Source: Siphonodentalium dalli (Eukaryota > Mollusca > Scaphopoda > Gadilida > Siphonodentaliidae). Taken from it: a stretch of 64,000 bases of DNA. Where the stretch lies: NCBI GenBank assembly GCA_032622095.1, contig CP136068.1, positions 162,149,465-162,213,464 of the forward strand, given 5' to 3'. The stretch's first letter is position 1. Every line of letters starts with the position of its first letter. This document shows, one piece after another, positions 3,187 to 63,620 of this stretch. The position numbers were made by a program, and so were the translations under genes. The notes beneath the pieces were generated by a model that saw only the letters and a list, made by a program, of their open reading frames with translations, was not told the DNA's origin and did not search any database.

Positions 3187-3200
3187 ATGGAACAACACAA
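3187..3200 (+). CDS. Gene 1 exon 1 (14-nt coding start)
   Basis: The ATG at 3187 reads MEQH plus two bases and meets a GTAAGT donor at 3201. Joined to the next exon it runs in frame through KHTD into the signal peptide. The exon is short, so it rests on the TATA box upstream and the preserved frame. Translation could instead begin at the second ATG (6876), which gives a more standard signal peptide. Confidence 0.55.
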
Positions 3201-6200
3201 GTAAGTAGTCTAATTGTTCAAGTTTAAGGTACGAAAGGCCTACGATGTAGGTTTATGCGAAATAGCATAAAGGGCTGTAAAACAGCTCTAATCAATAAGT
3301 GCATGGAAAATTGTTTGTTCGAATTTTCGTTATTAATATCTCTCCAATAATGAGATTTTGCATATCAAAACTATATCTTATGTAAACATTGCTGTTACTG
3401 TGTAATTACCTATACAAGTCCAATTACTACAATAAGATACAAACGTTTTAATCAAAAGTTGACGGCAAATATTGGAAAAAGTTTAAAATATTGAATAATA
3501 TTATGAAAATCATAATTTAGAATAAAATATTTCAACTTAATAGCGATGTTTGTTGACAAATCACTGTAATGCATGTATTTTTGTTTACATGACAATTGTT
3601 TCAACGTTCGATTGGATGTGAGATAAAGATTCCAGGTCCTATAAAACCACAATAATTTTTTATTTTATTTTATCATAAAATACTAAAAACAAATCTAATA
3701 CAAATACTCCCTGTTGACAATATGCTATCTTTTATACTATTTGGATCACTATTTAAACAACTGTTGATTCAATTTTGCTCGTTTTGTGCGCTTCTGTATT
3801 TGATGTCTCACTTACAGTTCTACTGTTCTATCGTGGTGTTGGTGTACATATATCTTATGTTTGCAATTGTATTTTGTGTTTAACAATCATGTCAAGCGTT
3901 TTAGGGCACTTCGGTATATATTAAGCTATACAAAACTGTTATTTTATTTATAATACGTAATAGTTTTAATGTCAGAAAATAATTAGATAGGACTGATGGG
4001 TTCGTTAATGGGAGGAGCCATATACCGACTTTCAAATACAGTTTTAACGAGCTTTGATATTTCGCCTATCAATAATTTCAATCATCACCTCTGATAAAGA
4101 GCGTCCATGCTTCCGTGACCCAAAAGCAGTGGACAATAAAGAGCGTGATGCATACGTTTCAACGTACAACGATGGATTATTGTTTGTATTTCACGGTGCT
4201 TGTGTCATATATAGTGTGGGGGTGGAGTAACACCCCTACCCCGTGCAATCCGTAATCCGGCTTTAAAACAGACATGGGATATGGGATCCAGTTTAACACG
4301 TCAACAGTAATGAATACCGGTATATTAATTATTTTGAATAAGAAAAACATTCCATATTTTGCAATTAAACGCCATTTGCGCGACATAGAACAGAAAAGAA
4401 TCGTTCCGTGGTAGTCTAGTCCTGATATGGTATCAATAAAGAGCGTTTGTCTTAAATATGGCGAAAAGTTGAAAACGGCTGGAAAATGACAAGCGTTTTT
4501 CAGAGAATATTAAACCGGTATATAAATAGTTCGTTTATTTATGGACATATCGTATCCGTCGCTCCAAATTACGTAGAAAAAAATTGGAGGTTCGAATGAG
4601 CCATCTCCGTTTAGGTTGGTGTCAACTCAGACCGTGGATCGCTTAAGTGTTTTACGAAATGGATTTGATTCGCTTGGATTCCATGGAGCATTGGTGAAGG
4701 TTGGTCTGACATTTAGTGAGGGACGTTCGATCAACTTGCATCCATACTCCATGCAAAGTAACGATATCCATTATTTATATTTACACTCTTCGGCTCCAAT
4801 TGTAGATTTGAAGTGGAGTTATCGCCCATTGTGAACATTATTTTGGTGGTGCGTTTGGAAGTTGCGCTCACACAATTTTCTGTCTTAATGTGTCATTTTT
4901 ATCCACTTTTTTTGAGTTCTCCGTATCATAATTATTATCATTCCCATACTTATTTTATGTGCGTTTATCTTATCTTGACATCTCCTCGTGCCAATTGGTT
5001 CATAGTGTACCGACACATATTTGATTCTTAAATAAGCCCATTGTGGACTTATACCCTATATTCCGTTTTATGGCGCGCGGCACAGTGAAAACACATCATA
5101 AATAGCGTACATATGGTAGGTAGATTTATATTTAGCGTAATTCAGATATGGGCTTATTTGTGTTTTTTAAATATAGGGCTTAAATGAACTTATTTCAGGA
5201 GAACATGTTTCTTATCCTCCTCCGTGTTGAGTGGTTTGCTTATCGCTCACTCATTATACACTGTAACCGAGTTTTAAATGTTAAATGTGATGTATCTCTT
5301 CACCGAACGTTCGCTATAGCTTCTGAATTATGGAGTAATAAGTTTGAATCAGGGAGACAATTCAACATGCCCTTGTATCATTAGGAAATTTGTTTTTCTT
5401 CAATTATTTTCTATGAATTAGGACATAACATGTGGCTATGTTTAGAACATTACAACATTTCGTATTGGAAATATAACTTTAAAAGAACACTCAAATGAAA
5501 TATGAAAACATTTGATGTTTCAAATATGTTATTATGATAATAATCACTTAACCAAGTGTTATATGTAAGGTATACTCAAACTAATTTGATGCAAAATGCG
5601 TTTTCAAATTAACAATTTCTATAACAAACAGGCTTTTATCAGTAGTTCCCTTGCTTTTATCAGTAGTTCCCTTGCTTTTATGAGTAGTTCCCTTGGGACA
5701 TATTCATATAATAAGTCGCTTGTTGAACTTATTATCACAACATTTCCCACCAATTAACCCTTTACCCAACAGAACGACCCTGTGCCAATGCATTCTCTTA
5801 TATATGCGAGTCGACCATAGGTCGCCTCGCATATATAAGAGAATGCATTGGCTTAACACATTAAATATTATAAAATTGTTAAAGAATGTAAGAAAAAATG
5901 GTAAAAAGTGTTAAAAAAAGATTTTTTTTAGGCCAATGCATTCTCTTATATATGCGAGGCGACATATGGTCGACTCGCATATATAAGAGAATGCATTGGC
6001 ACAGGGCATATCTGTAACTATCACAATGTGGTCAAGAATCCGGTTCCAATGATATCCATATTTGTATGGTTCTATTGAGACAGACCGAAGATATGTTAGG
6101 CTGTTGAAGCTTTATTTGGCCGGTTTTGGTCGGTTTGTTGGGTAAAGGGTTAATATAAATATATTTTAACTTATATATGTTTGCATATTACATGAACTGA

Positions 6201-9200
6201 ACATCCCTGAATAAAAGACCATTTTAATGCTTTCTTCTATACGTGAATGGGAGAATCCGTGCAGTATAGAGAGGGTTAATGCTTTCTTCTATACGTGAAT
6301 GGGAGAAATTATGATCCGTGCAGTATAGAGAGCGTTAATGATTTCTTCTATACGTGAATGGGAGAATCCGTGCAGTATAGAGAGGGTTAATGATTTCTTC
6401 TATACGTGAATGGGAGAATCCGTGCAGTATAGAGAGCGTTAATGATTTCTTCTATACGTGAATGGGAGAATCCGTGCAGTATAGAGAGGGTTAATGATGG
6501 AGAAGCTCTAACCTGAGTATGTTGTATGGATTCGGGGTCTAAAATAATAATTATGAGTCGACAAATTAGAGCTTATATGTCATCAGAAAATTAATTTTTC
6601 TATGAATTATTTACTATGAATCAAATCAGCTTACTACATTTTTACTACATTTTGATTGAACATATATCTTTTAAAACACGTTTTTATGTGAAATTTTAAA
6701 CACCAAATGTCTCAAATGTGTTTGTTTGGGAACAGCAGCGCTAAGGTTCATTCAAAACGCGTTTCCTAGAATGGTTGCTGTTGTTGTTGTTGTTATTGTG
6801 GTGGTGCCAGGAAAAGAAAATCATCTATAATGTATATTCATAATATTAAAATTATTTTGTAGGAAACACACAGACATGACGCGGAGTATAGCGGCGGGTC
6901 TATTTATTATTATCGTCATATTAACATCAGATATAAATGCACAGGGTAAGTTTAGTCCGCGTTCACACTCGGAACATCTCCATGACATTTGTGTTTGCAT
7001 TCATTTCGATACAGAAAGCTATAATATAACACTTTTCGCACAATGAACGACGACAACTAATTATAACGAGTAAGGTACTACGTCACTGGAATTTGTTTCT
7101 ATTCGTTGTCATGTTTCCCTATAACCGTCGTTGCGATTATGTTTTCCGCAAATATGCGACCCGCCATATCAAATCCAGTCGGAAGTCAGGATTTTTTTAC
7201 CATGTGCCAATGCATTCTCTTATATATGCGAGTCGACCATAGGTCGCCCCGCATATATAAGAGAATGCATTGGCCTAACAATTTTATATCATTTTTTTTA
7301 AATAAACGTTTCTTACAATTTTTAGGACATAAAATAAAAAAACATCCATTACCCTGCAGGGAGCCCCACACATATATAGAAGATTGTCGTCTGCTCATGT
7401 TTGTCTGGGGCTCTGTATGGGTGAAATTATAAAATTGTTAAAGAATACAAGAAAACATTATTAAAATTGCAAAAAATTGTTAGGCATATATAAGAAAATG
7501 CATTGGCACAGGGTAAAAAAAATCCCGACTTACGACTGGAATTGATATGGCGGGTCAAATATAGTAATAAGTTCGCGATGGTTTCTCAGCTCATCAAAAT
7601 GGGAGATGACTCTGAGATTATATCACGAAATTGTGATCGCCTAAAATGTTATCTATTGGTGGCAATAAAATTATTCGTCGTCGTGAAACACGAGAATCTT
7701 GCGAAACACAAAGCGCTAAGATTTCACCTGATAACAGCATAATTAAGTACAAAATAGTCACGACACGAAGACCCGTTATGCCCTTACTGTCACAGAATGA
7801 AGATCCGTTATGCCCTTACTGTCACAGCACGAAGACCCGTTATGCCCTTAATGTCACAGCACGAAGACCCGTTATGCACTTACTGTCACAGAATGAAGAC
7901 CCGTTATGCCCATACTGTCACAGAATGAAGACCCGTTATGCCCTTACTGTCACAGCACGAAGACCCGTTATGCCCTTACTGTCACATAATGAAGACCCGT
8001 TATGCCCTTACTGTCACAGCACGAAGACCCGTTATGCCCTTACTGTCACATAATGAAGACCCGTTATGCCCTTACTGTCACAGCACGAAGACCCGTTATG
8101 CCCTTACTGTCACAGCACGAATACCCGTTATGCCCTTACTGTCACAGCACGAAGACCCGTTATGCACTTACTGTCATAGCACGAATACCCGTTATGCCCT
8201 TACTGTCACAGCACGAATACCCGTTATGCCCTTACTGTACGACACGAAGACCCGTTATGCCCTTACTGTAAATAGTCACAGCATGAAGACCCGTTATGCC
8301 CTTACTGTCACAGCACGCAGACCCGTTATGCCCTTACTGTCACAGCACGAAGAACCGTTATGTCCTTACTGTCACAGCACGAAGTCCCGTTATGCCCTTA
8401 CTGTCACAGCACGAAGACCCGCTATGCCCTTACTGTACGACACGAAGATCCGTTATGCCCTTACTGTAAATAGTCACAGCATGAAGACCCGTTATGCCCT
8501 TACTGTCACAACACGAAGACCCGTTATGCCCTTACTGTCACAGCACGAAGACCCGTTATGCCCTTACTGTCACATCACGAAGACCCGTTATGCCCTTACT
8601 GTCACAGCATGAAGACCCGTTATGCCCTTACTGTCACAGCATGAAGACCCGTAATACCTTACTGTCACAGCACGAAGACCCGTTATGCCCTTATTGTCAC
8701 AGCACGAATACCCGTTATGCCCTTACTGTACGACACGAAGACCCGTTATGCCCTTACTGTCACAGCACGAAGACCCGTTATGCCCTTACTGTCACAGCAC
8801 GAAGACCCGTAATACCCTTACTGTCACAGCACGAAGACCCGTAATACCCTTACTGTCACAGCACGAAGACCCGTTATGCCCTTACTGTACGACACGAAAG
8901 CCCGCTATGCCCTTACTGTAACTAGTCACAGCATGAAGACCCGTTATGCCCTTACTGTCACGGCATGGCGACCCGTCATGGCCTTACTGTCACAGCATGA
9001 AGACCCGTTATGCCCTTACTGTCACGGCATGGCGACCCGTCATGGCCTTACTGTCACAGCATGAAGACCCGTTATGCCCTTACTGCACGACACGAAGACC
9101 CATTATGCCCTTACTGTCACAGCATGAAGACCCGTAATACCCTTACTGTGCGACACGAAGAACCGTTATGCCCTTACTGTCACAGCATGAAGACCCGTTA

Positions 9201-12200
9201 TGCCCTTACTATATGACACGAAGACCCGTTATGCCCTTACTGTACGATTGTCTCTCAAGCAGACTCGTAGTCGTCATTTTTGCGAAAAGGTTTCTGGACC
9301 GTCCGAAAAAAATACGACTAGAAATAGCTTTTCGTAATAATTATCTGTCGTCGTTTATTATGAGAAAGGTGTGTATTGTGACAGCACATGATATGCTTAT
9401 AAATTTCATCTGTACCACGGCTAAGTACGTAGACACCATGTAATTCCACATGTAGCGATGCTGCCGAAATTTGCCTATAAATTTACATCAATTATATCGG
9501 ATATTATACCAGAATAGTACGTGCCATGTCGTTAGCCTTGATAAATGCATGTTATATGCATGTTGTTGTTCATATTTTGGAGCCTGAATTAAATCAATCG
9601 ATTGTTGGGCGATTTTACAGAGTTGAATAAAACTATTACTCAACTCGTTGAGTATAAATAGTTTACTCAACGTTTATCCAACGTTGCTAGAGGCCATAAC
9701 AGCGCAGCTGTTGAGTACTTGTTGAGTAAAATCTTACTCAACGAGAGTTAGAGTGTAGTGATGGTACCCTTTAACTACCCGGTTTATATAAATAAATCCA
9801 GTTGGTGCGGATGTGCCATAACGCTGGATGTGCAATACCAACTGACATGTACCTATACTCTAATTACAGGTTGCACGCCGCCTACTAACACGGATATTAT
9901 GTACGTACTCGACTACTCAACCGGATCCCAATCATACACAAGTGAACAGCTGACACTCGCCAAATACATCTTATCATATCTACCAGTCAACGGAAACAAC
10001 ATTCAGGCCGGAGCAATACTCTATGACGACACAGACGCCAGCGCCACGTCTTCAGAAATAGTCGGCATTCAAACTGATCTCGCTGTATTCGCGTCACTCC
10101 TCGATCAAACGTCATCGAATAACGGAGGCACCAACTTCCGTTACGTCGTACCCGCATTAACGCAGGCGGTGTCGCTGTTGAACGCTGGGCGGTCGGGTGT
10201 TGATAAGTACATCGTCATGATGACAGGCGGAGATTTGACCGAGAATACAGGCACTCTACAGAGCTTCGTCGCGAGCAACAGCAACATTAACATCATTGCC
10301 GTCAGCTTCCAGGCTCTGTTTGCGCAGCGTACCATCTTCCCGAATCTCATCTACTCCAGTGATCCGACGGTCCTGCCCGCTTATGATGAGTACGTCGCCA
10401 GCTTCTTCTGTCAAAGTAAGTCCTGGAAATATAACCATGCAGCAAACGTACGCATGTACACACGTACCCGGTACACACCTTCCCTCACCAAGGCCTCATT
10501 TACGCACTAGCAAAATTCAAACAGGCAACACTGACGTCGGCGAATAGACACCATGCTTAGAAAAGCGTGCTATCTAGGCCAACAAAGTATTATGTCGGCA
10601 TAATAGAGACCTTTCGCATCGTTACTATTACGATTACGAATACGGATAGCTATTGGTAGTCATAATGCTATCCGCATGGCCAAAAAGTACCAAAACGACT
10701 ACGGATAAGAGTTTTGACGAAGACGCACCATCAATGTTTCGTACCACTTTTGCAGCTCAAAGCGCGTGTTTTGGTATGCAGTCCCTTAAACTTTACTTGT
10801 CTCGTTTTATCATTTTTTATCTTGTTCTTACATTCTTTAACAATTTTGTCATTTTTTTCTTACATTCTTTAACAAATTTTATAATTTTGTATCATTATTG
10901 TCGTTATCTGTTTTGCGAAACGAAAGTTTTGGCCCCACGTGAATTTTACGGATGCACCGTAGTCGGTACTCTGTCTATCTATATAATACGAATTGTTTCT
11001 CCTCATGGGAGAATCATTCTATCACTCGGCATTTCAAAAAGTAAAATATTTTTCCCCGCAGCTGCTTATGTCTCAAATGGACTTTCCACAACATTGGCGG
11101 CGACCACAACAACAGCTGCCGCGACCACAACAAACACAGCCGCTACGACCACAACAGCCGCAGTGACCACAACAACGGCAGCCGCTACGACCACAACAGC
11201 CGCGGTGACCACAACAACCACAGCCGCAACGACCACTACAACCGCAGCTGCGACCACAACAACGGCAGCCGCGACCACAACAACCGCAGCCGCGACCACA
11301 ACAACCGCAGCCGCGACCACTACAACCGCAGCCGTGACAACAACAACAACGGCTGTGGCTACAACAACCACCATTGTTTCCGGAAGTGAGTGTTTAGTTT
11401 TACTAACATTTCCCCTGGATGCTCATAATTGTACTACATCTAACAGGAGGTACTCCTTATAATCGTTGATATCCTTAAATGTACATGCAACCCTGGAGTT
11501 AGATGGATTATACAACACATATCATATGTGACCCGCCATATCAAATCCAGTCGTAAGTCGGGATTTGTTTTTACCCTGTGCCAATGCATTCTCTTATATA
11601 TGCGAGTCGACCATAGGTCGCCTCGGATATATAAGAGAATGCATTGGCCTAACACTTTTTATCATTTTTTTTAAATATATGTTTCTTACAATATTTAGGA
11701 CATATAATACAAAACATCCATTACCCTGCAGGGAGCCCCACACATATATAGAAGCATATAGAAGAGTGTCGTCTGCTCATGTTTGTCTGGGGCTCTGTAC
11801 GGGTGAAATTATAAAATTGTTAAAGAATACAAGAAAAAATTATTAAAATTGTAAAAAATTGTTAGGCCAATGCATTCTCTTTTATATGCGAGGCGACCTA
11901 TGGTCGACTCGCATATATAAAAGAATGCATTGGCACAGGGTAAAAAAAAATCCCGACTTACGACTGGATTTGATATGGCGGGTCACATATATGTAACTCA
12001 GTAATGTTGTCGATTAGGTGTACAGCAAGTTTTTATTTTAGGGCATCGTCCGTCCTTTAATTTTATGTGAACAATATAGTATTGTCATTATCTGCATCAC
12101 ATGACGAACTTTCGACGTCATACTTTCGCCTGGATGGGAATATTGATGCAAAGTGTTACAACTAATGTTATCTTTTGTTTTAATACCTAGCAATTAATAT

Positions 12201-14402
12201 CATACGAAAAAAGTGCCAATACTGTTGAAATTAATGGAATAAGGAAATACGCACTGCAACTGATTGTGCTCAACGCTATTGGTATTGTATAGTCATTGTT
12301 CGTTATTGGACACACGGCACTGGTTTCCCTGTTACAGTAATATGTGTCAACAATGGGGACTTTCGTCTCTGTGTGGTTATTGATAATGAACAGAAAAACA
12401 AACTCCTTCTATTTGTTCATGTCAGTATTGACCAAATGTAACGACCGCGAACACCTTTTACACCTATCCCTTTCAGTGCCAAGTCCGATTTTTGTATCAA
12501 CCCATATTTCCTTGATCAATTTTCAAATTTATTGATTATAATAATGTGATACATTGATGGAAAGAGCTCTTAGGACTTGGCACTGCAAGGGTTAACTAAC
12601 TCCGATTGTTATCGATCATGCAGGTTGTGCTTACCCGAACAACACAAATATAATCTTACTACTCGACAATTCCACGGCTTCATATGACCAACCAAAAATA
12701 CTTGGCGAAATACGTCCTATACCTCCAGTGGGAAAAACATAGAGGCGGGACCGACTCAAACACCACTGCATTTGAAATAGTTGTCGTTGTTGTAATTGCA
12801 TGTCGAATCCCTGACATGCCTATAGTTTTTTTCTAATTTATTTTACAGGTTGTGCATACCCAAACAACACGGATATAATATACGTCCTTGACTATTCCAC
12901 CGCTTCACAGCCTTACACATCTAACCAGAATGATTTAGCGAAATATGTCTCGTATCTCCTACCAATAAGTGGAAACAGTGTTCAGGCCGGTGCAGTACTG
13001 TATGACGACACAGACGCAAGTGCGGTTTCTTCAGAGATAGTGGACCTCCAGTTGGACCTCGCGACCTTTGCATCTTTACTTGACCAGACGTCGTCGAACA
13101 ACGGAGGGGGTAACTTCCGTTACGTTATACCCGCGTTAACGCAGGCAGTGTCGCTGTTAAACGCTGGGCGGTCAGGCGTAGAGAAGTATATCATAATGAT
13201 GACAGGCGGAGATTTTACCGAGAATACAGTCACTCTACAGAGCTTCGTCACGGCCAATAGCAACATTAACTTCATCGCCGTGAGCTTTCAGTCTCTGTTC
13301 GCACAGCGCACCGTCTTCCCGAATCTCATCTACTCCAGCGATCCGACTGTGTTGGCTGCATACGATGAATATGTCGCCAGCTTCTTCTGTCAAGGTAAGA
13401 TTTCCCGATGTATTTCCTCCAGTTGTTTTCGATGCACCTCTTTAAAAGGAACTTCTCTTTCATGAATATATAACGCACTTACATGTATAATACGCGGAAT
13501 ATAAATGTGTAACATATGTACATGTATAACACGACTAATGCTTAACCCCCTTTAATGACGGGAGCTGCGCTGGCGCAACATTAAAGACCCTGTGCCAATG
13601 ATTCTCTTATATATGAGAGTCGACCATTCTATAACAATGTTTATCATAATTTCTTATATTCTTCAACAATTTTTTAATTTTTATATTTTTTTCTTACATT
13701 CTTTTAACAATTTTATCATTAAAAAAAATATTACACATTCTATATCAATTTTTTTATTGTTTTTTTCTTACATTCGCTAATAATTTTTATTATTTTTATC
13801 ATTATTTCTTACATTCTTTAAAAAAAAATAATCATTATTTTTCGTTTTTTCTTACAGTTTTTAACAATTATAAAAATTAATATAAAATTTGTTAGGCCAA
13901 TGCATTCTCTTATATATGCGAAGTGTCCTATGGTTGACTCGCATAAATAAATGGATGCATTGGCACAGGGTTTTCCCAAAAATTCAGGAAGCTCCCATCA
14001 TGAAATGGTTAACTCCCCTTTTCTGGCACGCGGGATTCGGGTGGTTTTGAAGTCGTACGCATGCGTCATACCGCTCCATATACAACTGTGGACTTTTACT
14101 CTCAATGGAAATTATGACGGTCAGTAGTTGTGAAATCCACGAGTCTTATTAGTCAGGAAATGTTATGACACTTGAATATAACCCCAGTATTCCTTTTATC
14201 GCTTCCATGACTGGAGCTTCCTGACATTTTGCGAAAAAAACCTGTGCCAATGCATTCTAATATATATGCGAGAATACACTGACACATGGTATTTAACCCT
14301 TTCAGTGCCATCATTTGTTATTATTTTTTACAATTTTTTACAATTTTAATATTTTGTTCTTATATTCTACTCTCTTAAGCATACCCAAAAAAAATTCAAC
14401 CC

Positions 14403-14436
<34 letters not shown>

Positions 14437-17211
14437 AGAGTTTTTTAGGCCGATTTTTCAGACCGTAAATTAGGGCCGATGTGATCGGCCCCTGGCACTG
14501 AAATGGTTAATGCTTAACCAGCGCAACTTCCGTCACGAAAGGGCTAAGAGAAACATAAATCCAATGCGTTATCGCTTATCGAATATTACGTAATATGAAT
14601 CGTATGGGGCACGTAGTGGAGCAACCACACATGATGTGCCTCAAATTTGCCTTTTTCGGCGACATAACGCTACGGATAATTTATGTAACATCATGCAGTG
14701 GTCACGACGGAGACGACATGCCAAATTGACAAGACGTGTCGTGGATTGTAAAATCTTGTCTGGATTATCGTCATGACCTCTTAATTTTTCGTTTTCATTA
14801 AGCTGACCGACGAAATTTGTCTAAATGGAATTAATAGTCTTAAATCACATGTGAATTCTTCGTAAGTTGTGAAGTAGTTACTTTCAATTTTATCGTGATG
14901 ATTTATTTCCGATTCCGCGTTTTTTTCAATCTCCACAAGGTTGCTAACCGGAAGTCACGTGGCAATTTCTCCAAAATATATACCCGCAATCTTGAAAAAT
15001 CACTGATGGATATAGAAAAAATGATATGACGTCATTCACCTGCCTTAGGTATAAGCACTCTTGGTGGTTGCTATAAGTACATGTGCTTTTATAAACTTGG
15101 TAATTCCAGTGTCATTTATCAGTGATGCACTCTCAACAACAACCGCTGCGACAACAACAACAACGGTGGGGGTAACAACAACCACTATCGTTGCGGCAAC
15201 AACCACCGCTGCCGCGACAACAACCACCGCTGCCGCGACAACAACCACCGCTGCCGCGACAACAACCACCGCTGCCGCGACAACAACCACCGCTGCGGCA
15301 ACTACCACAACCGCTGCCGCAACAACCACAGCAGCTGCCACAACAACAACCACCGCTGCGGCAACAACAACCACCGATGCGGCAACAACAACCACGACAA
15401 CCGCAGCACCGACCACTACCACCATTCTTTCCGGAAGTGAGTGTTTTAATTGTACCGTTGATTATCCGATCAGGGACGTGACTAGAGTGTGTCCATGGCG
15501 GTGTTCACCTTGGAATTTCTAACAGCACCCACCCACTGGAGCAGACCGACATTTCCTTATCCGAGAAATTCCATTTGCTTCTAATTGGGGTAAAATTTTC
15601 CAACTGGTATTTAAAACTTTGAAGTTACCCGTGGCTTTAACATTTACCGACTGTGAATGCTACCCTTGGCTTTAACATTTACCCACTAACGCCCCATATC
15701 ATTCCAGCAATATGACTGAAATCATAAAATATTCGAATTCTGGTTTAAAGACTGCTTAAATATATTGTGGTAAAATCCCACTCACTGTCGAAAGGACATT
15801 GTATCCGATATATGGCATACTTGCATAGTGCATTAGACCGACATTCAATTATAAAGCTCGTTCGACTCCCAAATCCCAGTCACCGTGTGGAGACATAGCA
15901 TATGGTGCAAATTGCAAAACATCTGGTTGTATTCTAATGGTTTTACAAATGATGTACGAGAATCTAAAAACGTGTGTGAATGATCAAGCTACTTTCATAA
16001 TGTAATTGGCTTAAAACAAGACAAATTGTCCTATTTCGATTACTTGAATTACAATTAATTTTCTCACTCTGTATGCCACTAAACGACGAGGTGTTATCCA
16101 ATAAATTGAATTGAATTGAATTAATGACAGCAGATGCTGGAAACACAATTTTGTCAAATGATTAACCCTTTACCCAACAAACCGGCCAAAACCGGCCAAA
16201 TAAAGCTTCAACAGCCTAAAATATCTTCGGTCTGTCTCAATAGAACCATACAAATATGGATATCATTGGAACCGGCTCCTTGACCACATTGTGATAGTTA
16301 CAGTTATGCCCTGTGCCAATGCATTCTCTTATATATGCGAGTCGACCATAGGTCGCCTCGCATATATAAGAGAATGCATTGGCCTAAAAAAAAATCTGTT
16401 TTTAACACTTTTTACCATTTTTTCTTACATTCTTTAACAATTTTATAATTTTTAATGTGTTAAGCCAATGCATTCTCTTATATATGCGAGGCGACCTATG
16501 GTCGACTCGCATATATAAGAGAATGCATTGGCACAGGGCCCTTCTGTTGGGTAAAGGATTAAAGTGACACGAAACACTCGGCTTATGTGTTCAGAACGGG
16601 ATTTGTTTTCTTAATCGCATGTAGCTCGACTGAACATAAAGTATTTATACAATAACTACAAAGAATGCATGGTGTTATATGTAACCTTTAAAGGTACGGT
16701 TGGCCTTGGCGGTGGGTATCCTGTAAAAATATTTCCACCCGTCAAAAACCGTCACAAACAGACAGAACATCAAAATGTAGACAGACTTTGTCCGTATACA
16801 AATAAGAAATATCGCATAAACAGTATGTTATTGTCATATATTTGACTATTGTTATGTAAACAAAGGCATACAAAGTTACTTTTCTGGTGTTTGTTTATAT
16901 TATGATGGTAAACATAAAGAGCGTTCTTTGTGGGTGAATTCCTGATATGGAACTAATAAAGAGCGTTTATGCCATTTGTGTGTGATTAGCCAGTAGCATT
17001 GTGCTGTCTTCTGTAACACAATCAGGCTCTTGCTTCTAGGTAAAATATAGTAGGTCTTTATGATAACATGCTGTTTACGCGATGGTCATGATATATATGA
17101 ACGAAACTGTATGCGTTTTAATATTTTTCTGTTTACGGTGTTTGGAACAAATATGTATATTTTCGACAATTAAGGCCTCACGTGCCTTTAATGGACAAAC
17201 GCGATGTTTAG

Positions 17212-51077: not shown

Positions 51078-54000
51078 CTGAAAATAAATAGGTGAATATT
51101 AAGATAAGGGTATGTTTTATCAAGATCGGCACCGGTAGAGTTTAAGCTGGAAACAAAACAGTGAGTATGGAGACATGTGCATCTTACAAGGATAAATTCA
51201 CTGTCACAAGGCTGGGATCGATTTAGTTTATCAACACTAGTCGACTTATGCCACTATTATATAAACTTATAGACGGATAACATCGTTCATTGACGTTATC
51301 ATTATCACATATACTTTAAATGGTAAACTGCCGCCTATGTGGCTGCAAGTCTGAGTAATACATGTGAAATTCGCGGCGTTCTTTTTCAACTGTTTTATAA
51401 TGGGAAATGGTAGATCTTCAGAACCAGTAAATAACCGACGTCAGATCACATTCAAATGTTAAGCCGGTATGTTGGTCAGTTCTATGGAATAGTTCAATAT
51501 AACACAATTTGAAGGAACACACCGACAAAGAAGAAAGTATTTCACCCCTACCACCTAAATTCGGAATATCGGAGGTTTGATTTACGCGCACCAGTTAAGA
51601 AATAAGAAATAAAAGAAATAGTAATTTCACATTAATATGTTCATTTTCACATAAATTATTTACTAAAGCAATGTCAGTAACTTTAACATATGAAGAGTTG
51701 CAAGGCTGAATTACATCACCATTTGTTATTTGAACTAAGAAATTATTAACATATGATACGTTTGTGTTATAAAATCTGCATGTCAGCATTTTAGATGAAT
51801 ACCGAATACCAATTAAAATCAGAATATGAATCCCGGATATCATGTAGTGGGGGCTGTATGAGTCATGTGTACCCCTCAATGGTCACCCTAGAATTCCGCG
51901 TTCCTAAAAATCAGGAGACAATCCTTGAAATTGCAGACTTACCTGATCTATGCTTCCAGTGAAAGCACCGAGGTTGCCACACGCCGTTGGACACATGGAA
52001 GTATCCAAGGAACCGACGTAAAGAGCTCCATTCGAAGTGCTCAGTTTACCTGAAAAAAAAAACAATTTGTCGTCAGCAATTAACCCTTTCATGACGGTGG
52101 CTGCACAGCAACCAGTGTCTCTCGACCAGGACAAGTCAGGGACAGAGACATATATATTAAGTTAATGAGGTGGAGGAGCCAGGGGACAAAGGCCTACTAA
52201 GTTAATGAGGTGGAGCGAGTGTGATTGTGACGATTGTGATTGTGATTGTGTTGCATATCGCCGTGCTCTATATATACTGGGAAGTGTACATATATGTATA
52301 TATATTTTGCATGTTCTGTGTTAAATCATAGCTTTTGCAATAAACTGATTGATTGATTGAAAATATATGGCATTACATAGGATAGGATAGGATAATTTAT
52401 TTACAATATACATGAATTATACAAAGGCAGAAATACATAATAAGGTAAAGCAGTATATTGTCGGGGGTAGCCTAGCCCTATCGGGCTGTCTCCCTGCTAC
52501 CCCCTAAAACAGGTATCAGTGTAAATAATAGAATAGATGCTTGTATCCATATCCACGCACACGTACAGACTATAATCATATATAAAACTTTGTAGAATCC
52601 AATACTTAGGGCATAACAAAAACAAGTATTGGTGTGGTTGTGAGCCAATCCAGACGAGTTATAAGATCGAAAATGTATTATCTATCCATATGAATGTTTT
52701 GAACTGTTCAGATTTTCTAAACATATGACAGTTTCCGTTCCAGTTCCATGGGTTTATTAGGAACAAAACAGTTAGTTTTTTGTTGCTATAACGGATTCAG
52801 GCGAGAGATACCACCATCTTTAGTTCGGTAAACACAATGAGGATATATAAAGATCGCCGGGAAGTCTCTTTGTTGAGGTTGCAGTACATTGCAGTATTAC
52901 GGACAATTCCGGGAATTTCCACAGTTTAAGTATTCGAGCAACGTATAAGGCTCAAAACTTGAACACTTTATATACTGCATATATTTGAATAAATGTTCAG
53001 GAATAGGCCAGCGATAAGCAAAATACACACAACGTTATACAATATAATATAATACATGTACGTTGTGCCTAAATATAACACCAACTGTTCGTTCCAGTTA
53101 ATTTGTTCTCAGTCATTCAAAGTGAGAAAACTATGAATAACGTGTGTGTGTCATTGGACAAATGTCTCTTATGCAGTATAGAAACACATCTCTGGGTTAT
53201 TGACAGATTGTAAACAATTGGCGAGTGTAATACATACCGGGTATATTGACTGTGCTCTCAAAGCCGTTGATGGAAGCTATGAGATTCGTGTTGTTGTATT
53301 TAAGAACAACTTCCTTGTCACCATCATCCTGAAATCAGAGAGAACAATGCTTTTATGAATTGGTCGCACTGGAAGGATAGGACAGCGGATAGGCGCGAAA
53401 TAAAATCGCGATAGACTGTAGCAAAGCCGCCCTTAGTAAGGTGGTGAAGTCTTTCTAAAAGTCAAACCTGGTTATGTGGAAGGTAATACATGTACAACAT
53501 GTACGGGTGTTGTAAGGATGTCATTTAAAAAAAAATATTTATAAATTGTATTTCTTTTTCTTATAGTTTGTCATCACATAGCAAGTTAAAAATAAAGACT
53601 GCTATAGTCCACCAGTGCCGCGAATAAGTGTGCGTCAGTTAGTATAATGTAGCGACTCTCCAGCTAAATATATTGACACTGTCAATCTTTAAATTACACA
53701 ATCAATGTTTAGTGATCAGTCTTTGTACATTGTATATGTTAAAACTTTTTTTTAGATGGGAGATAAAGTGAACGGCTATGGTGTCAGTGTTGCTGTTGTG
53801 TCTAACTTCGAATGGTTGCGCAGCCTTTCTTGAAAACCACAATCTCAACTCTTCATGGAATAGGATAAAGTCCTCGACTCGAACATGACACATTGAAAAA
53901 CACAACGGTACATCACTTTCTCACGCCAAAGTGATTGTTATATCGACATATGTGACCCGCCATATCAAATCCAATGCCAATGCCAATGCCAATGCATTCT

Positions 54001-57000
54001 CTTTTATATGCGAGTCGACCATAGGTCGCCTCGCATGTATAAGAGAATGCATTGGCCTAACAATTTTTTATCATTTTTTTTAAATAAATGTTTCTTACAA
54101 TTTTGAGGACATAAAATAAAAAAACATCCATTACCCTGCAGGGAGCCCCACACATATATAGAAGCATATAGAAGAGTGTCGTCTGCTCATGTTTGTCTGG
54201 GGATCTGTATGGGTGAAATTATAAAATTGTTAAGAATACAAGAACAAAATATTAAAATTGTAAAAAATTGTTAGGCCAATGCATTCTCTTATATATGGGA
54301 GGCGACCTATGGTCGACTCGCATATATAAGAGAATGTATTGGCACAGGGTAAACAAAATCCCGACTTACGACTGGATTTGATATGGCGGGTCACATATTA
54401 CGTACCTCAAAACTTATTACCATGAAAATAAGTTTGTATCATCGTCATCTTGATTTCATGTATGTTGTTATATTGTATTGGGAGAGGGGCTTCATAAGTT
54501 ATAAAAACTTGTGCCCAAATCCCTTTTGTATATTATACAAATAAAATATGTTTCAAATCAAGTTAGATCGGCAGAACACACCAACTATCACAGCATTTTA
54601 TCAGGACCTAACTACATCATAGAAAAATGGTGGGAACCCAACAGTGCCACACATATATCGAATTAGCATGACCTCGTGACCAGGTGGTCGAGCCAGCTCG
54701 TACTCAATTTATTCTCATATTAGAGTACTTTTGGATGTTAGAGTGGAGCTGGTTATGCCAATAACGAGGCTACACTTACCGTTGTTCGCATAACTATTCT
54801 CGTCATTCGTCCGCCGTTGATGCGCGCTTCGATGATGACGTCATATTGACTTGCGGCGGCCTGCGTCCCGTCGATGTAGATAACAATTGACGGGGAACTC
54901 CAGCAGTTACAGTTCGAGATGATGACCTGTTTGGCGTTGGTGTTGCTCGGTCTGAATCTGATCATGACGGACACTCCATTCATCCAATCCATGCTAGCAT
55001 AGCGCCAGATAGTGAGGGCTTCTGACCCAGAAAACACACCCTTCCCGTTCTGGATTTGAATGTTACCTCTGTGTGCCACATAGACGGAGTTAGATACGGC
55101 GTGAGTGTCAATCGAGAAAGGAATATCCATATCGACATTACAGCTCAGACCTGCAGAAAAAAGTCAAACTCATATTCTGGCCATTGTTCAATTCAATTCA
55201 TTTATTTCTCATTTCCTTAACAAAGGCATTGAGATAAATATATATATAAGATATGTACATATATACATGTGGTCAACATGGCGAACAAACATATGCATCT
55301 ATCCAACATGATATCAATTAAATAAATAGTGTTCCTTTGTATAGAGGTCATACATGTCATATAATTTAGCTACTATACATGTACATATATATTTCATTCG
55401 ATTTAAACAGTTTTATAATATTATAATGTACTTTATATGATATACAAATCTAAGAAGTCGTCCGGTCAGGGAAACGACGACACTAATGTAATCTCTAAAC
55501 TGTTGGTTCAGGTGTTCAGGAACCTACGTCACTAATGTAATATATAAACCGTCGCTTCAGGCAATTTTATTGGCGCTATCTGTAATTCTTGTTAGGAACG
55601 TGGGAGTTGTAAGTTAGTACTCAAGCGCTATGTCAACTGGAGAAATTCTACTAACATCGCTGAAAATTCTCAAACAAATTGACCGTGCAACTCCATAGAA
55701 AACAACGTTTGAACTACACTGAATTGTAAATATTTACTTCTCGATTCGGATCGCATTGACTATCGGCGATAAACTGTATGTAGCGCGAACAATTTAACCA
55801 TCGAGAGTCACTGAATTTAATTAATATATAAGCATGACGATGTGTGTTGTCAATTTGGATATAACATTTGTAAAAATACCTAAGTTTGAGCAAGATTATT
55901 CTCCATTTCTATTTGATCACCCTATCGGAGTGTTTCACATAACATTAAGAGGATATCGATTTTGAACAATTCAACTACCGACCTGCTTGGACTGGGGTCA
56001 GAGACGCTACGACGGCTGTTCCGGCGTGGTCACATCGACATATTGGTGGCACGAACACAGTCCCAGGTGGACAACTCCTCAGCAAGGTGAACCCTAAGAA
56101 CACTTCCTCTCTGTATTCATCAGCGGCGGTGGTACTTTCGTGCATACGACAGACAGCTAAAATTAGGACGCCATGTGTTAACCCTTATATACTAAACATA
56201 TCAGGCACATTCTGATTTCATCTACATGTATTATAGTTATATATAACTATTTTAGTTGAATTCGACAGTGCGAAATCCATAATTTCCTCGCCTTTTTGTG
56301 GAAACTATGAGATCGCGTATCCTAGTACGCAGCCATAATACACTCCTAACAATACTGCAGCGAATTAAAAGTAACAGTATCCAGATCAAAATAGTTTTGC
56401 AACCTTTTGCGCCGGCTTATTTCATTTAATAATGATACACTGACGCCTTTCTAAATAACTTTAACAGGAGAAATCAATTGCTCCTTGATAGCAATATTTG
56501 GACACATATAATTTTAGTTGACTTCCTTGTCACGTGACTTCCTTATCACGTGACTTCACGAGTAAACATTCTCACGGATCTAGGCATATTACTTCGTCAA
56601 AAAACAAACAAACATGGTACGGATTTAGTATGACACTGCTTTTTAATATTGTTCTGTGAAATATGATGTTGGGTTATGCCTCGAATTCACAAAACGGCGA
56701 TATCCATATATACCTATTCTAGTTCAATATAACTATAATAATTGAATTCAGGATGTATCTGCCCCTTCTAAACATATTATCCCAGTATGCTATGCAAGTA
56801 TTTGTGGTTTGGTACATTATTCAAGTTTAATGTTCGGGTAATAACAACAGACTGGAAAAGCCTGATAAAAGTGCAGGGATATGCCTATGCATTGGTGAGA
56901 ACTATTCAGATAATAAGTTGAACTGAACATCTGAAATATTCAGATAATACATTGAGATTATGTCAACATTTCCTGGAAACTATCCGTATAGAAAAGACAA

Positions 57001-60000
57001 GGTTAGCAAGCGGATTGGCGCCGGTAGAACTTTCGTGCATACGACTAACATTAGTACGTTGCATGTTATTGGTAAACATTGTTACAGTTAATGTGCCTCA
57101 TCTCTTTACTCTCATGCATACGACAGACGGATAAAATCAGGACGTCAAGTGTTACTGGTCGATTAATTGGGATTTAATAGTGTTACAGGTATCATATTAT
57201 AGTTGAATATAACTATAATTATTCAATTTATAAAGCGCCTGGTCTGGCTAATGTGTCGTATGTATAGGTAGTTAACGTTGTCTGCGGTAGAACGTCCATG
57301 CATATGTCGGCTAAAATTAGGACGTCAAGTGTTGTAGATCGACTGAATGAGCTTCTTTTTTTTTTTAGATTTCACATCTATGTGCGGATTCGCGCCGATG
57401 GAACTTACCATCAGTTAAGTGTTTCTAGACATGTTTAAACAGACACTGCATCGATGACATATCTATATAAGCAGTGGTACCGAGATGTAAAGACATGTTT
57501 ACCCTTTCAGTGCCAAGTCCGATTTGTGTATCAACCCATATTTCCTTGATCATTTTTCAAATTTATTGATTATAATAATGTGATACATTGATGATCTAAG
57601 AGCTCTTTCCATCAATGTATCACATTATTATAATCAATAAATTTGAAAAATGATCAAGGAAATATGGGTTGATACAAAAATCGGACTTGGCACTGAAAGG
57701 GTTAAGCGACAAAGCTCGCTATATCTATTTGACGCGTTTGAGGTATTTAAATGTCATCGTATTGTACTAATGGCACCGAATATCACGGAGGAAACCACGA
57801 TAAAATGGATGATTTTTGAGAAATAAGTTTGATTGAAAACTTTAGTAAGAATGTGGCGTGACTGCTTATGGATGAAGGTTTGTGGTCAATGGCATATCTA
57901 GCAAATAATATCTCAGTCAGGTAGTTTGCCATATATATCAAATTAACACAAGGAAGTCACTTAATCGGTTGTATATAAATGCAAATTAACTTAAACAGAC
58001 CATATACCTACGGGACTAACGGAGCATGGAGTCATCATACACGGAATTGGTGAAATTTTGTTATAGTAAGCGCTAGTATAATGAAATAGCATTGGCGTAC
58101 TGGGCGATGGAGCCAGTCTAACACGTGTTATTTGCGTACTGAGCGATGGAGCCAGTCAAACACGTGTTTGCTAAGACACAGTACATCCAGTAAAGCATTT
58201 CGAGAAAACTGCACGGTGCGGTGTAAACATGCTCCGACTATAAATGATGTCCCATGTACCTTTGTATGAGTTTGTTTTGTATATTTTCTTCAATAACGGC
58301 ATTTATCATTTATACTTGAGACCATGGCTTGGTATGCTTTTCAATAAATAAACTTACGGGGAGGTGGGACAGCATTTCGTCCTTGACTCAGCGATGGGGT
58401 AGAGCATGTCCCTAGGCACGTGGCATCTGTGACGCAAGCGTTGGTCGACCAATCAAATCGCTGACCTGTGGCGCAACATGACGCGGCGGCTGTTCCGGAA
58501 GTACATCTCCAGTAGGAGTTACACGTCAGACCATAGAACGCTCGTCCTGTTGTACTGCCCGGGCACACATCTGAGAATAAAAAGATTATTAGTGTCCTGT
58601 GAATATGAAATCTACTATAACAAATATGTCTATGAAGTTTGGTATGCCAGATTATGATACCAACGCATATAGCGTAATTCATTCAGATTTCTTTGAAAGA
58701 GGACGTTCGTCTTTTCTCAGACAAGGCGGAATTTATATATGTCATCCAACTTGTGTTTGAACTATGCGCGAATGTGAATGAAATTTCTAAACTAGAAATA
58801 TATATTCATTATATCACATTTTGTATATGATGCTACATCTTTTAAGCTCTCACAATCACCACGGCATATATATATATATCACATGAAACCCCTATAATAT
58901 AATTGAAAAATCCATTACATATTTTCTTATCTGTTACTAGTGGCTAATAGTTAATAGTCCAATCAGTAATCACTTTCATTGTATACCTGCGCGCGTGAAA
59001 TTATAACGAGAAACTGTGAATTACTATTGAAAACTGATTACTTGTTTTCATTAAAATTATATTATTGAAAAATGTTACCAATAAATAACCAAATAAAGAC
59101 GAAACTAAAAAGGGACTATATTTCGTTTCGCGTGTAGCGCAGTACTGACGTATAGTGGTGAACCGTCTGAACCAGCACAATACTTGTATACAGTTTACGC
59201 GTTCTCTACAGAGCTGATGTTGTTAACAGGGCATAAAGCTTTAGTTTTTTTCATGTGATATACAAGATCTTCAACTCATCATTTTGGGATATAAGATTTT
59301 ATGAAACTCGTTTGATAAATTTGATTCAAAACTCGTCTACGACTCGTTGTGAATCAAATTTATCAAACTCGTTTCATAAAATCTTATATCCCAACATAAC
59401 TCGTTGGAGATTCTCTATATAAGTCATCCTCGAGACAAATATTAGTCTAGTGTAAACTTACCGCAAGCTATTCCGGCCTGGTTTGGTAACACACATGAGA
59501 AAGAGCTCAAATCGAAAACGTATCCAACATAGCATTGGAAGATTTCGAAGTAAGTAATGTTGGTCTGGGGGTCTGTGTAGCAGTGGTATGCTTTAGAACA
59601 GTCGCCCGGGTAGTCAGCGTATTTATGTGGACTACCACTGGTTTGTGTGACGGCGGCGGCGCAACGATCTGAAACGAAAACAAGAATGATACACAATAGA
59701 GCAATCACCATAACAACGGAACTGATTAATTTTATGACAGAAGTATCTGTGTGTCATATATATGACCGCAGTCATTCTACAATCCAATTTCCAGGTGCGT
59801 ATTTGTATTCCTGGCAAAATAGATATGCAACCAAAATATGTTACTTAGCCTGTATATGCTGATTGAAGATATGTGTTGCAACTGTGGCTGCGATAAAGCA
59901 AACTCAGTTAACCCGTTCATGGCGGGAACCGCACTGGTATAGCATTAAATATCCTCTGCCAGTCAATCTGTTATATACATGTATGAGAGTCCCACAGGGA

Positions 60001-63000
60001 GCCTTTCATATAGCAGGGAATGCACTGACTTACGCGGTCATGGTAAATAATAATTAGGCCAATGTATTCTCGTTTATATGCGAGGCTCGTATATGGCACA
60101 GGGGTTTCACAAAATGTCAGGAATCTCCAGTAATGGGAGCATTAACCCTTTCAGTGCCAGGTCCGATATATGTATCAACCCATATACCCTGTGCCAATGC
60201 ATTCTCTTATATATGCGAGTCGACCACAGGTCGCCTCGCATATACAAGAGAATGTATTGGCCTAAAACAAAATCATCATTTGTTATTTATTTTACAATTC
60301 TTTAACAGACTTATTTTGTAGGTATAGTGCCAGGGAATCTTACTTTTTCCATGGGCATCAAAATTATTACTATGAATACTTGGTGATAGTTTTGAGTTAT
60401 AACATGCTCCTAATGTTTTTTCCAGTTTTTTTTAAAGTTCGCTATAGCATGCTTAAGCATACCCAAAAAAAATTCAACCCAAAACAATCTATAAAATAAA
60501 AAAGAAGGTTTTTTTCAGGGCAGATTTTGCAGACCGTAAATTAGGGCCGATGAGATCGGCCCCTGGCACTGAAAGGGTTGAGATTGCGAAGATATGGCGT
60601 ATATCATTTCGTATGTTATGAGGAAGGTATTATTGGTTTTCCAACACTTGTGATAATAAACTAATAAGGGTTACCGTTTTGTGTTGCTTATATATAAGGA
60701 AAATACATTCACAAACACAGTATGATAAGTGAATTCGGTGTTACGGGATGGTGGTGAATTATACATATTAACCTTTTGTCGAACTGCTTTAAGTCCGTTG
60801 GTAATAATGTCCAATACTTTGTCAAATCCGTGTACACATATCCACACAGTCCTGGCATTTTGCATTACCAATATTATGTGGGGAAATGTATATGAAAAAT
60901 TAGTTTTTAAGACGCCTTGCTTTTCACTCAACTACTTGTTTGACTTTCCATATGGCCGTTTTGTTAAACTGTCAGTGCATTCATCTGACTTTGATTCGGT
61001 TATTCGAGTGTGCTAGGAGTGGGTTCGCTTCGCATGGCATTCGTGATACCTAGTCAGACATCCACTTACCTATAATGGTTACACGTAAAACATCACGAAT
61101 ACTGTGCAACAATAACAGAAACGTTATGTATGTTAACCCCCTTTATATACTAAATGTATTCTCCCAGTCAGTTATAAGCAAATGGTCTTTTATTTATCTG
61201 GAGGGATATGAAGGGGATACAAGACGACATATAAATGCAGAACATGTTCGATAAACGGCCTATGATGACCAGTGAACTGAGGTGAGCCAGTGAACTCATC
61301 TGCCGAATTTGACTAGAATATAGAAACAATAATTATCGACATGGCTCGCTTCATTTATGGGATGCGTCATCTGATCCAATGCCATATATAATACGTGTAA
61401 ATAAATACGCGAGTGCGCTGAACTCGCATTAACATGAACATGGTCGTATTCAAGCTATAACGCAGGTGATCAGCCTCGCGTCGGTTCTGTTCACTTAATT
61501 ATTTATATTTGATGTACATCTGTTCCATGTATGTATGTATTCTTCTCTGGCAAGGAGATATACAATAACATATGGTGATAAGTAACATGGGTTTAAAACT
61601 TTAGATGAGCGTATTGTATAAACCAGTTTTTGCCCTTTTGGGGGTCAGTGTGATATAAAATATTACATCACACTTTCTCCAAACTGGGTGCACGTTTGTC
61701 TGGAGTGGATATATAGCCGTGTAACCGACTGTCCTCCTGTCCATCCTATCATAAATTTAGGATCAACTCAGGTTATGACGGAGATCTAAATCAAATATAT
61801 AAGATTAAGTGTTCATCTACTGACCTGCTGGGACCGGCATTGCTGTTGTGACTGGTGCGACAGTAGTTGTGGTTAGCATGAACACTCCAGTTGAGACCGG
61901 TACAATAGCGAACGTTGTCGTGGTAGCAGCAGCTGTTGTGGTTGTTGCCGCAGCGGTGGTTGTTGTTGCCGCAGCGGTGGTTGTTGTTGCCGCAGCAGTT
62001 GTGGTAGTTGCCGCAGCTGTTGTGGTAGTTGCCGCAGCGGTGGCGGTTGTTGCCGCAGCTGTTGTGGTAGTTGCCGCAGCGGTGGTGGTTGTTGCCGCAG
62101 CAGTGTTGGTAGTTGCGGCGACGGTTGTGGTTGGAACTGTCAATTTAGTAATAGCATATACACATCAAATGAAGTGATATTACCCTTGCATGTATAATGG
62201 ATGAGTTCCAATATTTTTGGACAAGATTACGGAGATTGTTGAATTACACTTGATAGATTAAGATATATTACGAACAATCAGGGATGTCAGGATGTGACTG
62301 TCAGGTTTTCTGCTTGTGGTTTGTTATTCATATGTCAGCTTATTAAAAAAATGAGATGAACACGAAATGTATTATGAATGTTTGTATCGCTGTATCGAAT
62401 GGCATATATATGTACGTTACCCCTGTTATAACCCTAGGCTAACTCAATATTGCACCAAGCTTGGTTTGGTTGTATGAAGACAACATACTGACTCAGGTGT
62501 AAACGTGTTACATGCTATCGGAGCTTGAATGGTTTGTACATCAGTGTAAAGATATATAAAAAAACACTCAAACCCAAAGAGATTACCCATCAATATATGG
62601 TTCGAATTCAACAGCGAATTCAAACTGAAACCGAATGATAAATCTTTCAAATCCGCACTTTAAAAAAAAATGCTATGCCCTGTGCCAATGCATTCTCTTA
62701 CATATGCGAGTCGACCATAGGTCGCCTCGCATATATAAGAGAATGCAATGGCCTAAACAAATATTTTTCTACATTCTTTGACAATTTTATCATTTTTAAT
62801 ATGTGTTAAGCCAATGCATTCTCTTATATATGCGAGGCGACCTCTGGTCGACTCGCATATATAAGAGAATGCATTGGCACAGGGCCGTTCTGTTTGGGTA
62901 AAGGGTTAAAAAAGCTACCATATTAAAAATATTTTTAGTCGATACTTCGCAACAATGCATTGGAAATAATCCAAGATGCATATAATGTTGTAATATCAAT

Positions 63001-63212: not shown

Positions 63213-63315
63213 TAATGGCGAAATATTTATCTGCATGTATGGATACATGTTGTATATATTCCACGTATATCGCTAAACAAACAGCCAATTAAATACTATC
63301 CCTGATATAAACTTA

Positions 63316-63470
63316 CCGCACGATATTCCAGCCTGGGTTGGTGGTACGCCCTGATATAAACTTACCGCACGATATTCCACCCTGTGTTGGTGGTACGCCC
63401 TGTATAAACTTACCGCACGATATTCCAGCCTGGGTTGGTGGTACGCATTCGAATGTGTACAGATTGAAGA
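63316..63470 (-). repeat. ~50-bp exon/intron boundary in three tandem copies
   Basis: The unit includes ACCCAGGCTGGAATATCGTG and the GTAAGTTTATA donor. It occurs three times, giving donors after 63414, 63366 and 63317. Confidence 0.9.
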
Positions 63471-63620
63471 CGAAGCCGGAGTTACATTGTCCTATTTCGT
63501 ATGATATCCCACATAGCAGGCATTGTTTGTAGCAGTGGTAGAATTTAGAACAGTCGCCCGGGTAGCTGTTATAACTATGTGAACTTAACAGTGACACTTT
63601 GACGGCCGACGCACATCGTT
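63414..63620 (-). CDS. CBM14 exon upstream of gene 2, with extended reading
   Basis: A 207-nt exon, phase 1 to phase 1 (CTTTCAG acceptor, GTAAGT donor). It reads RCASAV, YNSYPGDCSKFYHCY, QCNSGFVFN, ECVPP and ISCG, a full six-cysteine CBM14 with two extra cysteines (KQCLLCG). It can splice in frame to 61825-62136. It belongs either to a longer form of gene 2 or to a gene continuing to the right. Confidence 0.8.

Follow-up and report, generated by a model that had tools for sequence, protein, structure and literature searches.

The closest described counterparts of the locus analyzed here are the Pif/BMSP protein family (PMC11291548) and the oyster Pif_LamG3 gene cluster (PMC10543319). The locus lies on contig C8 of a 2.23 Gb genome of nine contigs, where a window of 64,000 nucleotides (C8:162149465-162213464) contains gene 1 on the plus strand and most of gene 2 on the minus strand; three further genes (genes 3-5) were modelled to the right of it. 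The Pif/BMSP family was defined by a VWA tree, and in 34 of its 50 members LG, at least by its N- and C-terminal parts, follows the chitin-binding (CB) domains (PMC11291548). Pif of Pinctada fucata (Pif97/Pif80) has VWA, CB, CB-like and LG-type sequence in common with our locus; the RMKR cleavage site and the aspartate (Asp)-rich Pif80 region of that protein are absent from our five models, which carry threonine (Thr)-rich linkers instead. Pif80, nacrein, and two protease inhibitors were recovered in a pull-down with the VWA of this protein, PfuPif (PMC11291548).

PifN of bivalve nacre has VWA, a poly-Thr insert, and CB domains in this order, as do genes 2-5, and PfuPifN has an uninterrupted LG, as these genes appear to have; PifN was assigned by VWA phylogeny and has four members, all bivalve, while the likeness reported here is one of layout. 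BMSP and BMSP-like proteins have tandem VWAs, comparable to the three of gene 1, followed by CBM14 and CBM14-like domains. For the BMSP-like protein of Lottia gigantea, three VWAs are given in the introduction of the same paper and two in its discussion. Bivalve BMSPs have four tandem VWAs, whereas gene 1 has three and genes 2-5 have one each; gene 1 also differs from BMSP in the Thr/Ala-rich linkers between its VWAs, in altered residues of the metal ion-dependent adhesion site (MIDAS), and in that no LG was found (PMC11291548 for the published proteins). In the oyster cluster, as here, several Pif-type genes lie on one chromosome; for that cluster, its authors put forward repeated "reverse tandem duplication" followed by domain loss in some copies, VWA loss among them (PMC10543319). 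The oyster LamG3 genes resulted from VWA loss, and the N-terminal LG was lost from one copy; in our cluster, gene 1 with its three VWAs is the member without LG, both VWA and LG exons being present in genes 2-5.

By this analogy, the locus is interpreted as a further case of the published kind of Pif cluster formed by inverted duplication. We did not see this locus described in the literature searched, which did not extend to subscription journals. Our best explanation, at a probability of about 0.8, is a local cluster of at least five genes encoding VWA-CBM14 proteins of the Pif/BMSP kind, with or without LG, in which gene 2 would be full length and would owe its origin, like gene 3, to an inverted duplication of recent date.

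Gene 2 past the right edge of the window

Flanks of 36 kb on the left and 100 kb on the right were added to the window (200 kb in total), together with chosen stretches further right; coordinates follow the window numbering, continued past 64000 into the right flank. Exon homology was analyzed with phmmer, comparing the window's own exons with six-frame open reading frames (ORFs) of the 200 kb. Genome-wide exon searches scored the best candidates only, and their match counts are lower bounds. The Pfam cut-offs were 23.8 bits for VWA and 22.1 bits for CBM_14. Signal-peptide exons were predicted, by means other than SignalP, from thresholds for the ATG, hydrophobicity, and a phase-1 donor.

The initial annotation had described genes 1 and 2 as tail-to-tail paralogues with complementary domains, gene 2 being without VWA in the window, and had offered as its alternative a locus extending beyond the right edge. 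The check that it named, a search for minus-strand VWA exons on that side, decided for the alternative: no more than 5.3 kb past the edge, the minus strand contains VWA and signal-peptide exons, with which gene 2 is modelled as a full VWA-CBM14-LG gene, and its apparent lack of VWA was an edge effect. The tail-to-tail arrangement was confirmed, with the stop of gene 1 at 30768 on the plus strand and the end of the gene 2 model at 51904 on the minus strand. The gene 2 model consists of 11 exons and encodes 943 amino acids (22% Thr) with no internal stop, in the order signal peptide, VWA, Thr/Ala-rich linker, CBM14, Thr/Ala-rich linker, CBM14, CBM14-like, four-cysteine, and LG:

69198-69246, minus strand: signal-peptide exon MWGLLLLLATPAVLGQ with a phase-1 donor; gene 3 has an almost identical exon; translation may also start in frame further upstream, at 69312
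66305-66853 (C8:162215769-162216317), minus strand: VWA exon, 2.3 kb past the right edge; acceptor score -0.1
64917-65429, minus strand: Thr/Ala-rich linker 1, beyond the right edge
63414-63620, minus strand: first CBM14 exon; Pfam 27.0 bits on the ORF; acceptor score -1.4
61825-62136, minus strand: Thr/Ala-rich linker 2; acceptor score -0.9
59462-59668, minus strand: second CBM14 exon; its ORF scores 21.5 bits in Pfam, slightly under the cut-off
58358-58570, minus strand: CBM14-like exon; its ORF scores 21.7 bits in Pfam, slightly under the cut-off
55983-56156, minus strand: four-cysteine exon; CBM_14 14.7 bits, below the cut-off; acceptor score -2.1
54780-55150, minus strand: LG exon 1, placed by homology, splice sites, and the Pif LG motif test
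53238-53328, minus strand: LG exon 2, placed by homology and splice sites
51904-52049, minus strand: LG exon 3, ending at a TAG stop or, alternatively, at the strong donor that follows 51943; acceptor found by eye

The VWA exon of gene 2 was first detected at 66300-66884 on the minus strand through its match with VWA 1 of gene 1 (phmmer, expectation value (E) 1.9e-14), and the matches of all three gene 1 VWAs with the VWA of gene 2 and that of gene 3 have E values between 6e-13 and 1e-14. The CBM14 exons (two copies in gene 2), the CBM14-like exon, and the four-cysteine exon follow a common order in genes 1 and 2, and gene 2 continues into LG exons, as had been proposed. In Pfam, spliced gene 2 gave CBM_14 at 49.0 bits in three stretches and nothing else; the VWA and LG assignments of gene 2 are weak in Pfam and rest on homology. 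Read to the TAG, LG exon 3 completes a strand that aligns with the published C-terminus of Pif LG, and the search for a next LG exon after the strong donor at 51943 gave no convincing candidate. A minisatellite of three 49-bp units (63300-63446) spans the 3' end of the first CBM14 exon of gene 2 and its donor, resulting in three equal donors; gene 5 similarly has many repeats of the end of its four-cysteine exon, at about 290.6-293 kb.

If an ancestral Pif gene had been duplicated in inverted orientation and had then lost domains reciprocally, VWA would have been kept in gene 1 and LG in gene 2. The convergent orientation of the two genes suits such a history, and so does gene 1, downstream of which no LG exon was found by profile, genome-wide search (E 1e-3), or Pif LG motif. 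It is contradicted by the VWA and signal peptide that gene 2 has just past the edge, for which we rejected it; moreover, the VWAs of genes 1 and 2 are 22-25% identical, and the mirror copy of gene 2 is gene 3. We consider a protein split between genes 1 and 2 very improbable, and gene 2 is predicted to be a complete VWA-CBM14-LG gene. Of the duplication and loss proposed earlier, an inverted duplication is indeed present beside genes 1 and 2, with gene 3 and not gene 1 as the partner of gene 2; reciprocal loss does not hold for gene 2, which has its VWA, while a single loss would fit gene 1, in which no LG was found. The claim of a split Pif is thus replaced by a mapped cluster of five genes.

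Gene 1, genes 3-5, and their duplication history

Gene 1 was modelled as a protein of 973 amino acids with no internal stop, in which all joints fit phase 1. As the initial annotation had stated, it has three VWAs and ends after the four-cysteine module; its exons were confirmed, with a TAA stop at 30768. The order is signal peptide, three VWAs with Thr/Ala-rich linkers, CBM14, CBM14-like, four-cysteine, and stop:

6876-6945, plus strand: exon 1, signal peptide MTRSIAAGLFIIIVILTSDINAQ with a phase-1 donor; sole candidate in 1-9870 to pass the ATG, hydrophobicity, and donor thresholds
9870-10415, plus strand: VWA 1; Pfam VWA 25.5 bits on the ORF; splice sites
11062-11385, plus strand: Thr/Ala-rich linker 1; acceptor picked by phase and homology, a higher-scoring one lying further upstream
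12849-13394, plus strand: VWA 2; Pfam VWA 25.2 bits on the ORF; splice sites
15110-15436, plus strand: Thr/Ala-rich linker 2; acceptor score -2.1, picked by phase and homology, another scoring higher
19608-20153, plus strand: VWA 3; Pfam VWA 21.7 bits on the ORF, alone below the cut-off
25856-26056, plus strand: CBM14; Pfam CBM_14 16.9 bits, alone below the cut-off; 43% identity with the CBM14 exon that gene 2 has at 63.4 kb
27983-28180, plus strand: second, CBM14-like exon; Pfam CBM_14 23.7 bits on the ORF
30604-30768, plus strand: four-cysteine terminal exon with TAA stop; AATAAA at 30805; CBM_14 15.0 bits over half of the profile, below the cut-off

Spliced gene 1 gave Pfam VWA at 30.3 bits in three stretches and CBM_14 at 31.5 bits. 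Its VWAs 2 and 3 are 94% identical to each other and 78-81% identical to VWA 1. The MIDAS pattern is DxSxS; the site reads DYSTG, DYSTA, and DYATA in the gene 1 VWAs, being altered in all three, and DGSQT or DGSQS in genes 2-5. Gene 1, with its three VWAs and no LG found, would be more distantly related to the other paralogues. A plus-strand LG candidate for gene 1 at 47.6 kb had a profile E of 0.28 and was judged to be due to chance. A 48-amino-acid ORF at 12596-12739, just upstream of VWA 2, was rejected as an exon; it is a partial VWA copy (first 23 residues). The first intron contains a 32-bp minisatellite in 46 copies (7757-9243), which is open in several frames and GC-richer than its surroundings.

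The remaining genes of the cluster were modelled on the plus strand:

102565-132987, plus strand: gene 3, with signal peptide, VWA, Thr-rich linker, CBM14, CBM14-like, and four-cysteine exons twice with a Thr-rich linker between the two sets, and LG; spliced model
181326-231469, plus strand: gene 4, with VWA, Thr-rich linker, CBM14, Thr-rich linker, CBM14, CBM14-like, four-cysteine, and LG; 919 amino acids, no internal stop, modelled without the first exon
278216-303984, plus strand: gene 5, with VWA, Thr-rich linker, CBM14, CBM14-like, four-cysteine, and LG; 722 amino acids, no internal stop, modelled without the first exon

All five exon-joined models stay in one frame with no internal stop, and those of genes 1-3 run from signal peptide to stop. 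A search of genes 1-4 for hydrophobicity and splice sites predicted signal peptides in genes 1, 2, and 3; no first exon of gene 4 was found in the 2.3 kb before its VWA. Residues after LG in the models of genes 4 and 5 are uncertain. The CBM14 exon of gene 3 at 125337 was chosen by homology over a better-scoring upstream acceptor. An apparent absence of the four-cysteine and LG exons from gene 4 was rejected, both being present at 224-231 kb past a 36-kb intron. An apparent frameshift in the last LG exon of gene 3 was also rejected, the differing stretch being intron before a CAG acceptor. Most exon modules start and end in phase 1; thus, a module can be duplicated or lost with the frame kept.

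Genome-wide, at least seven VWA matches (E up to 1e-3) were obtained with VWA 2 of gene 1 as query, and again at least seven with the VWA of gene 2; all seven listed matches fall in the cluster (C8:162.159-162.428 Mb), three in gene 1 and one in each of genes 2-5. The LG exons had at least eight matches: four in the cluster (genes 2-5), two on contig C5, and one each on C7 and C1. Of at least 11 matches of the CBM14-like exon, six were in the cluster, two on C5, two on C1, and one elsewhere on C8. In all likelihood, at least five related VWA-CBM14(-LG) genes form a local cluster that begins on the left with genes 1 and 2.

Gene 3 is a near-mirror copy of gene 2, head-to-head, with 78-95% DNA identity including introns. 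In the alignment of the two genes, a greedy collinear chain of blastn hits from which non-collinear hits and hits below 80 bits were dropped, 28 of 29 inverted blocks connect 48.9-74.4 kb with 100.0-136.9 kb; the 29th (29.8 versus 141.5 kb) looks like an unrelated repeat. Over 577 shared codons, genes 2 and 3 differ by a nonsynonymous rate (dN) of 0.024 and a synonymous rate (dS) of 0.056; dS was 0.137 between genes 4 and 2, 0.123 between genes 4 and 3, and 1.13 between genes 5 and 2. Overall dN/dS on shared exons (0.42 for genes 2 and 3, 0.27 for 2 and 4, 0.30 for 3 and 4, and 0.19 for 2 and 5) suggests purifying selection.

The low coding dS of genes 2 and 3 would also be expected if one gene had been assembled twice, as uncollapsed alleles placed in inverted orientation. 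Such an error is highly unlikely: non-coding blocks go down to 78% identity and contain large insertions, the three-exon module is present twice in gene 3 and once in gene 2, and gene 3 is without the first-type CBM14 exon of gene 2, which is present in gene 4, a further copy in the orientation of gene 3. The second CBM14/CBM14-like/four-cysteine module of gene 3 lies at 118397-119721, where genes 2 and 4 have a single distinct CBM14 exon. The two modules of gene 3 are 88-90% identical in protein with a dS of 0.067, pointing to a recent internal duplication. The pair of genes 2 and 3, the youngest in the cluster, shows gain and loss of phase-1 chitin-binding modules in candidate shell-matrix proteins. 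We suggest, tentatively and as a rather doubtful extension, that module turnover may be in progress, given the near-palindrome of genes 2 and 3, a second three-exon module gained within a dS of about 0.06, and the multiplied VWAs of gene 1 without LG. If this is true and the palindrome promotes gene conversion or copy-number change, individuals could differ in the chitin-binding valency of their shell proteins.

Pif/BMSP identity and proposed function

The genes had been regarded from the outset as Pif/BMSP-like paralogues in a candidate shell-matrix cluster, and this view is upheld; the domain architecture agrees with that of the Pif/BMSP family (PMC11291548) and of the oyster clusters (PMC10543319). 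In 2000 shuffles each, the Pif LG N-terminal motif was matched as well or better in 8 for gene 2 and in none for gene 5; as good matches were obtained in 0/2000 shuffles for the C7 and C1 exons and in 1/2000 and 16/2000 for the C5 exons. In controls without LG, 434-987 of 1000 shuffles were as good. Ranking of every ORF in the 200 kb by this motif put the LG exon of gene 3 first, an unrelated ORF second, and the LG exon of gene 2 third. LG exons in the models join without a long insert, and their identity as LG rests on the motif matches. CBM_14 and CBM_14-like domains downstream of VWA were found by Pfam in spliced genes 1 and 2, and the exons of genes 3-5 match those of gene 2; Thr-rich exons lie between VWA and CBM14 in genes 2-5. 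In a VWA tree, the seven cluster VWAs stood apart from eight other VWA loci with weak support (82/100); the tree contains sequences of this genome only, its bootstrap is not settled, and two outgroup rows are on very long branches, one of 62 amino acids. Single-sequence searches of the Protein Data Bank (PDB) with the LG exons gave no hits; the profile search gave five sequences, each of them the restriction enzyme PvuII (best E 1e-4), which were judged spurious. Support for the genes being Pif/BMSP-like is good but incomplete.

A number of observations speak against the interpretation of the locus as a cluster of expressed Pif/BMSP-type genes. The exons were picked from open frames, and only the joints test the gene models. 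Several exon acceptors score below zero, four of them in gene 2 (VWA, first CBM14, second Thr-rich linker, and four-cysteine), and no poly-A signal was found within 900 nt of the modelled stop of gene 2. The VWA of gene 2 alone reached 16.2 bits in Pfam, below the cut-off, and Pfam found no LG in any form of the LG region tried. Comparison with Pif/BMSP proteins consisted of the two LG motif strings printed in PMC11291548. The C-terminal motif was not significant (as good in 124/2000 shuffles for gene 2 and 921/2000 for gene 5), and none of the eight ORFs that it ranked highest in the 200 kb was an LG exon. At the exon level, dN/dS was near or above 1 for CBM14 (1.23) and CBM14-like (1.04) between genes 2 and 3, for the first CBM14 between genes 2 and 4 (1.00), and for CBM14 between genes 3 and 4 (2.57), and it was 0.98 overall between the two modules within gene 3. 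Finally, none of the five models, two of them partial, has an R-X-K/R-R site, and none has an Asp-rich stretch (at most seven acidic residues in any 30); for these two reasons, a direct Pif80-like role in mineral binding is not indicated by the predicted proteins.

The genes could instead encode secreted chitin-matrix proteins other than those of the shell (mucus, gut lining, egg case, or cuticle), their kinship with Pif/BMSP being mainly one of domain make-up. CBM14 together with Thr-rich linkers also suits mucin-like matrix proteins, and the models are without an acidic stretch. Molluscs probably evolved VWA-CB proteins on two or more occasions, and some of these proteins fall outside the Pif/BMSP family (PMC11291548). 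The order VWA, poly-Thr, CBM14, CBM14-like, and LG, however, is the published layout of PifN, and the N-terminal motif of Pif LG matches; we regard a non-shell role as the less likely, though a serious, alternative.

As shell-matrix proteins of the Pif/BMSP kind, the products of genes 1-3, in which the first exon was found, would be secreted, and the mantle would be the tissue secreting the cluster proteins. The CBM14 modules may hold chitin, as expected of their families, and the VWA and LG modules may bind other matrix proteins, with the Thr/Ala-rich linkers as putative O-glycosylated spacers. The proteins would in this way connect the framework of chitin with the mineral-forming matrix. Should the animal belong to a group other than the bivalves, the locus would show that Pif clusters with poly-Thr linkers, formed by inverted duplication, are not confined to bivalves.

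Other loci and repeats

Candidate relatives were found on other contigs. On C5, a head-to-head pair of CBM14-like and LG exons is present at 75430727-75441037 (minus strand) and 75546765-75549307 (plus strand), one of the LG matches having an in-frame TGA. No VWA was found near this pair among the matches listed (best 150 of 204 Pfam candidates, and two genome-wide VWA searches), for which reason the pair is a candidate for LamG3-type genes. At C7:141321379-141332642 (plus strand), a Pfam VWA match of 55 bits lies 11 kb before an LG exon whose Z for the Pif LG motif exceeded those of the other five exons tested; this locus is perhaps another Pif-type gene. LG and CBM14-like exons 7 kb apart at C1:46060407-46067766 (minus strand) make up a further Pif-like gene candidate. 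A run of 32 VWA matches with a spacing of about 1.8 kb and nearly equal scores was found at C4:203600092-203655861 (minus strand).

CBM14 hits between -25117 and -23981 in the left flank are weak (E 4e-5 to 0.02); they fall in ORFs of a tandem array with a 33-bp period and are probably matches of low complexity. Left of gene 1, a direct repeat (-885-994 and 806-2685) aligns over 1893 bp at 97% identity with an offset of 1.7 kb. Dispersed repeats of about 400 bp occur in both orientations at 601-994, 2292-2687, 5751-6154, 16161-16562, and 27516-27905; they share 94-98% identity with a copy near 131 kb, situated between LG exons of gene 3, and probably represent a mobile element.

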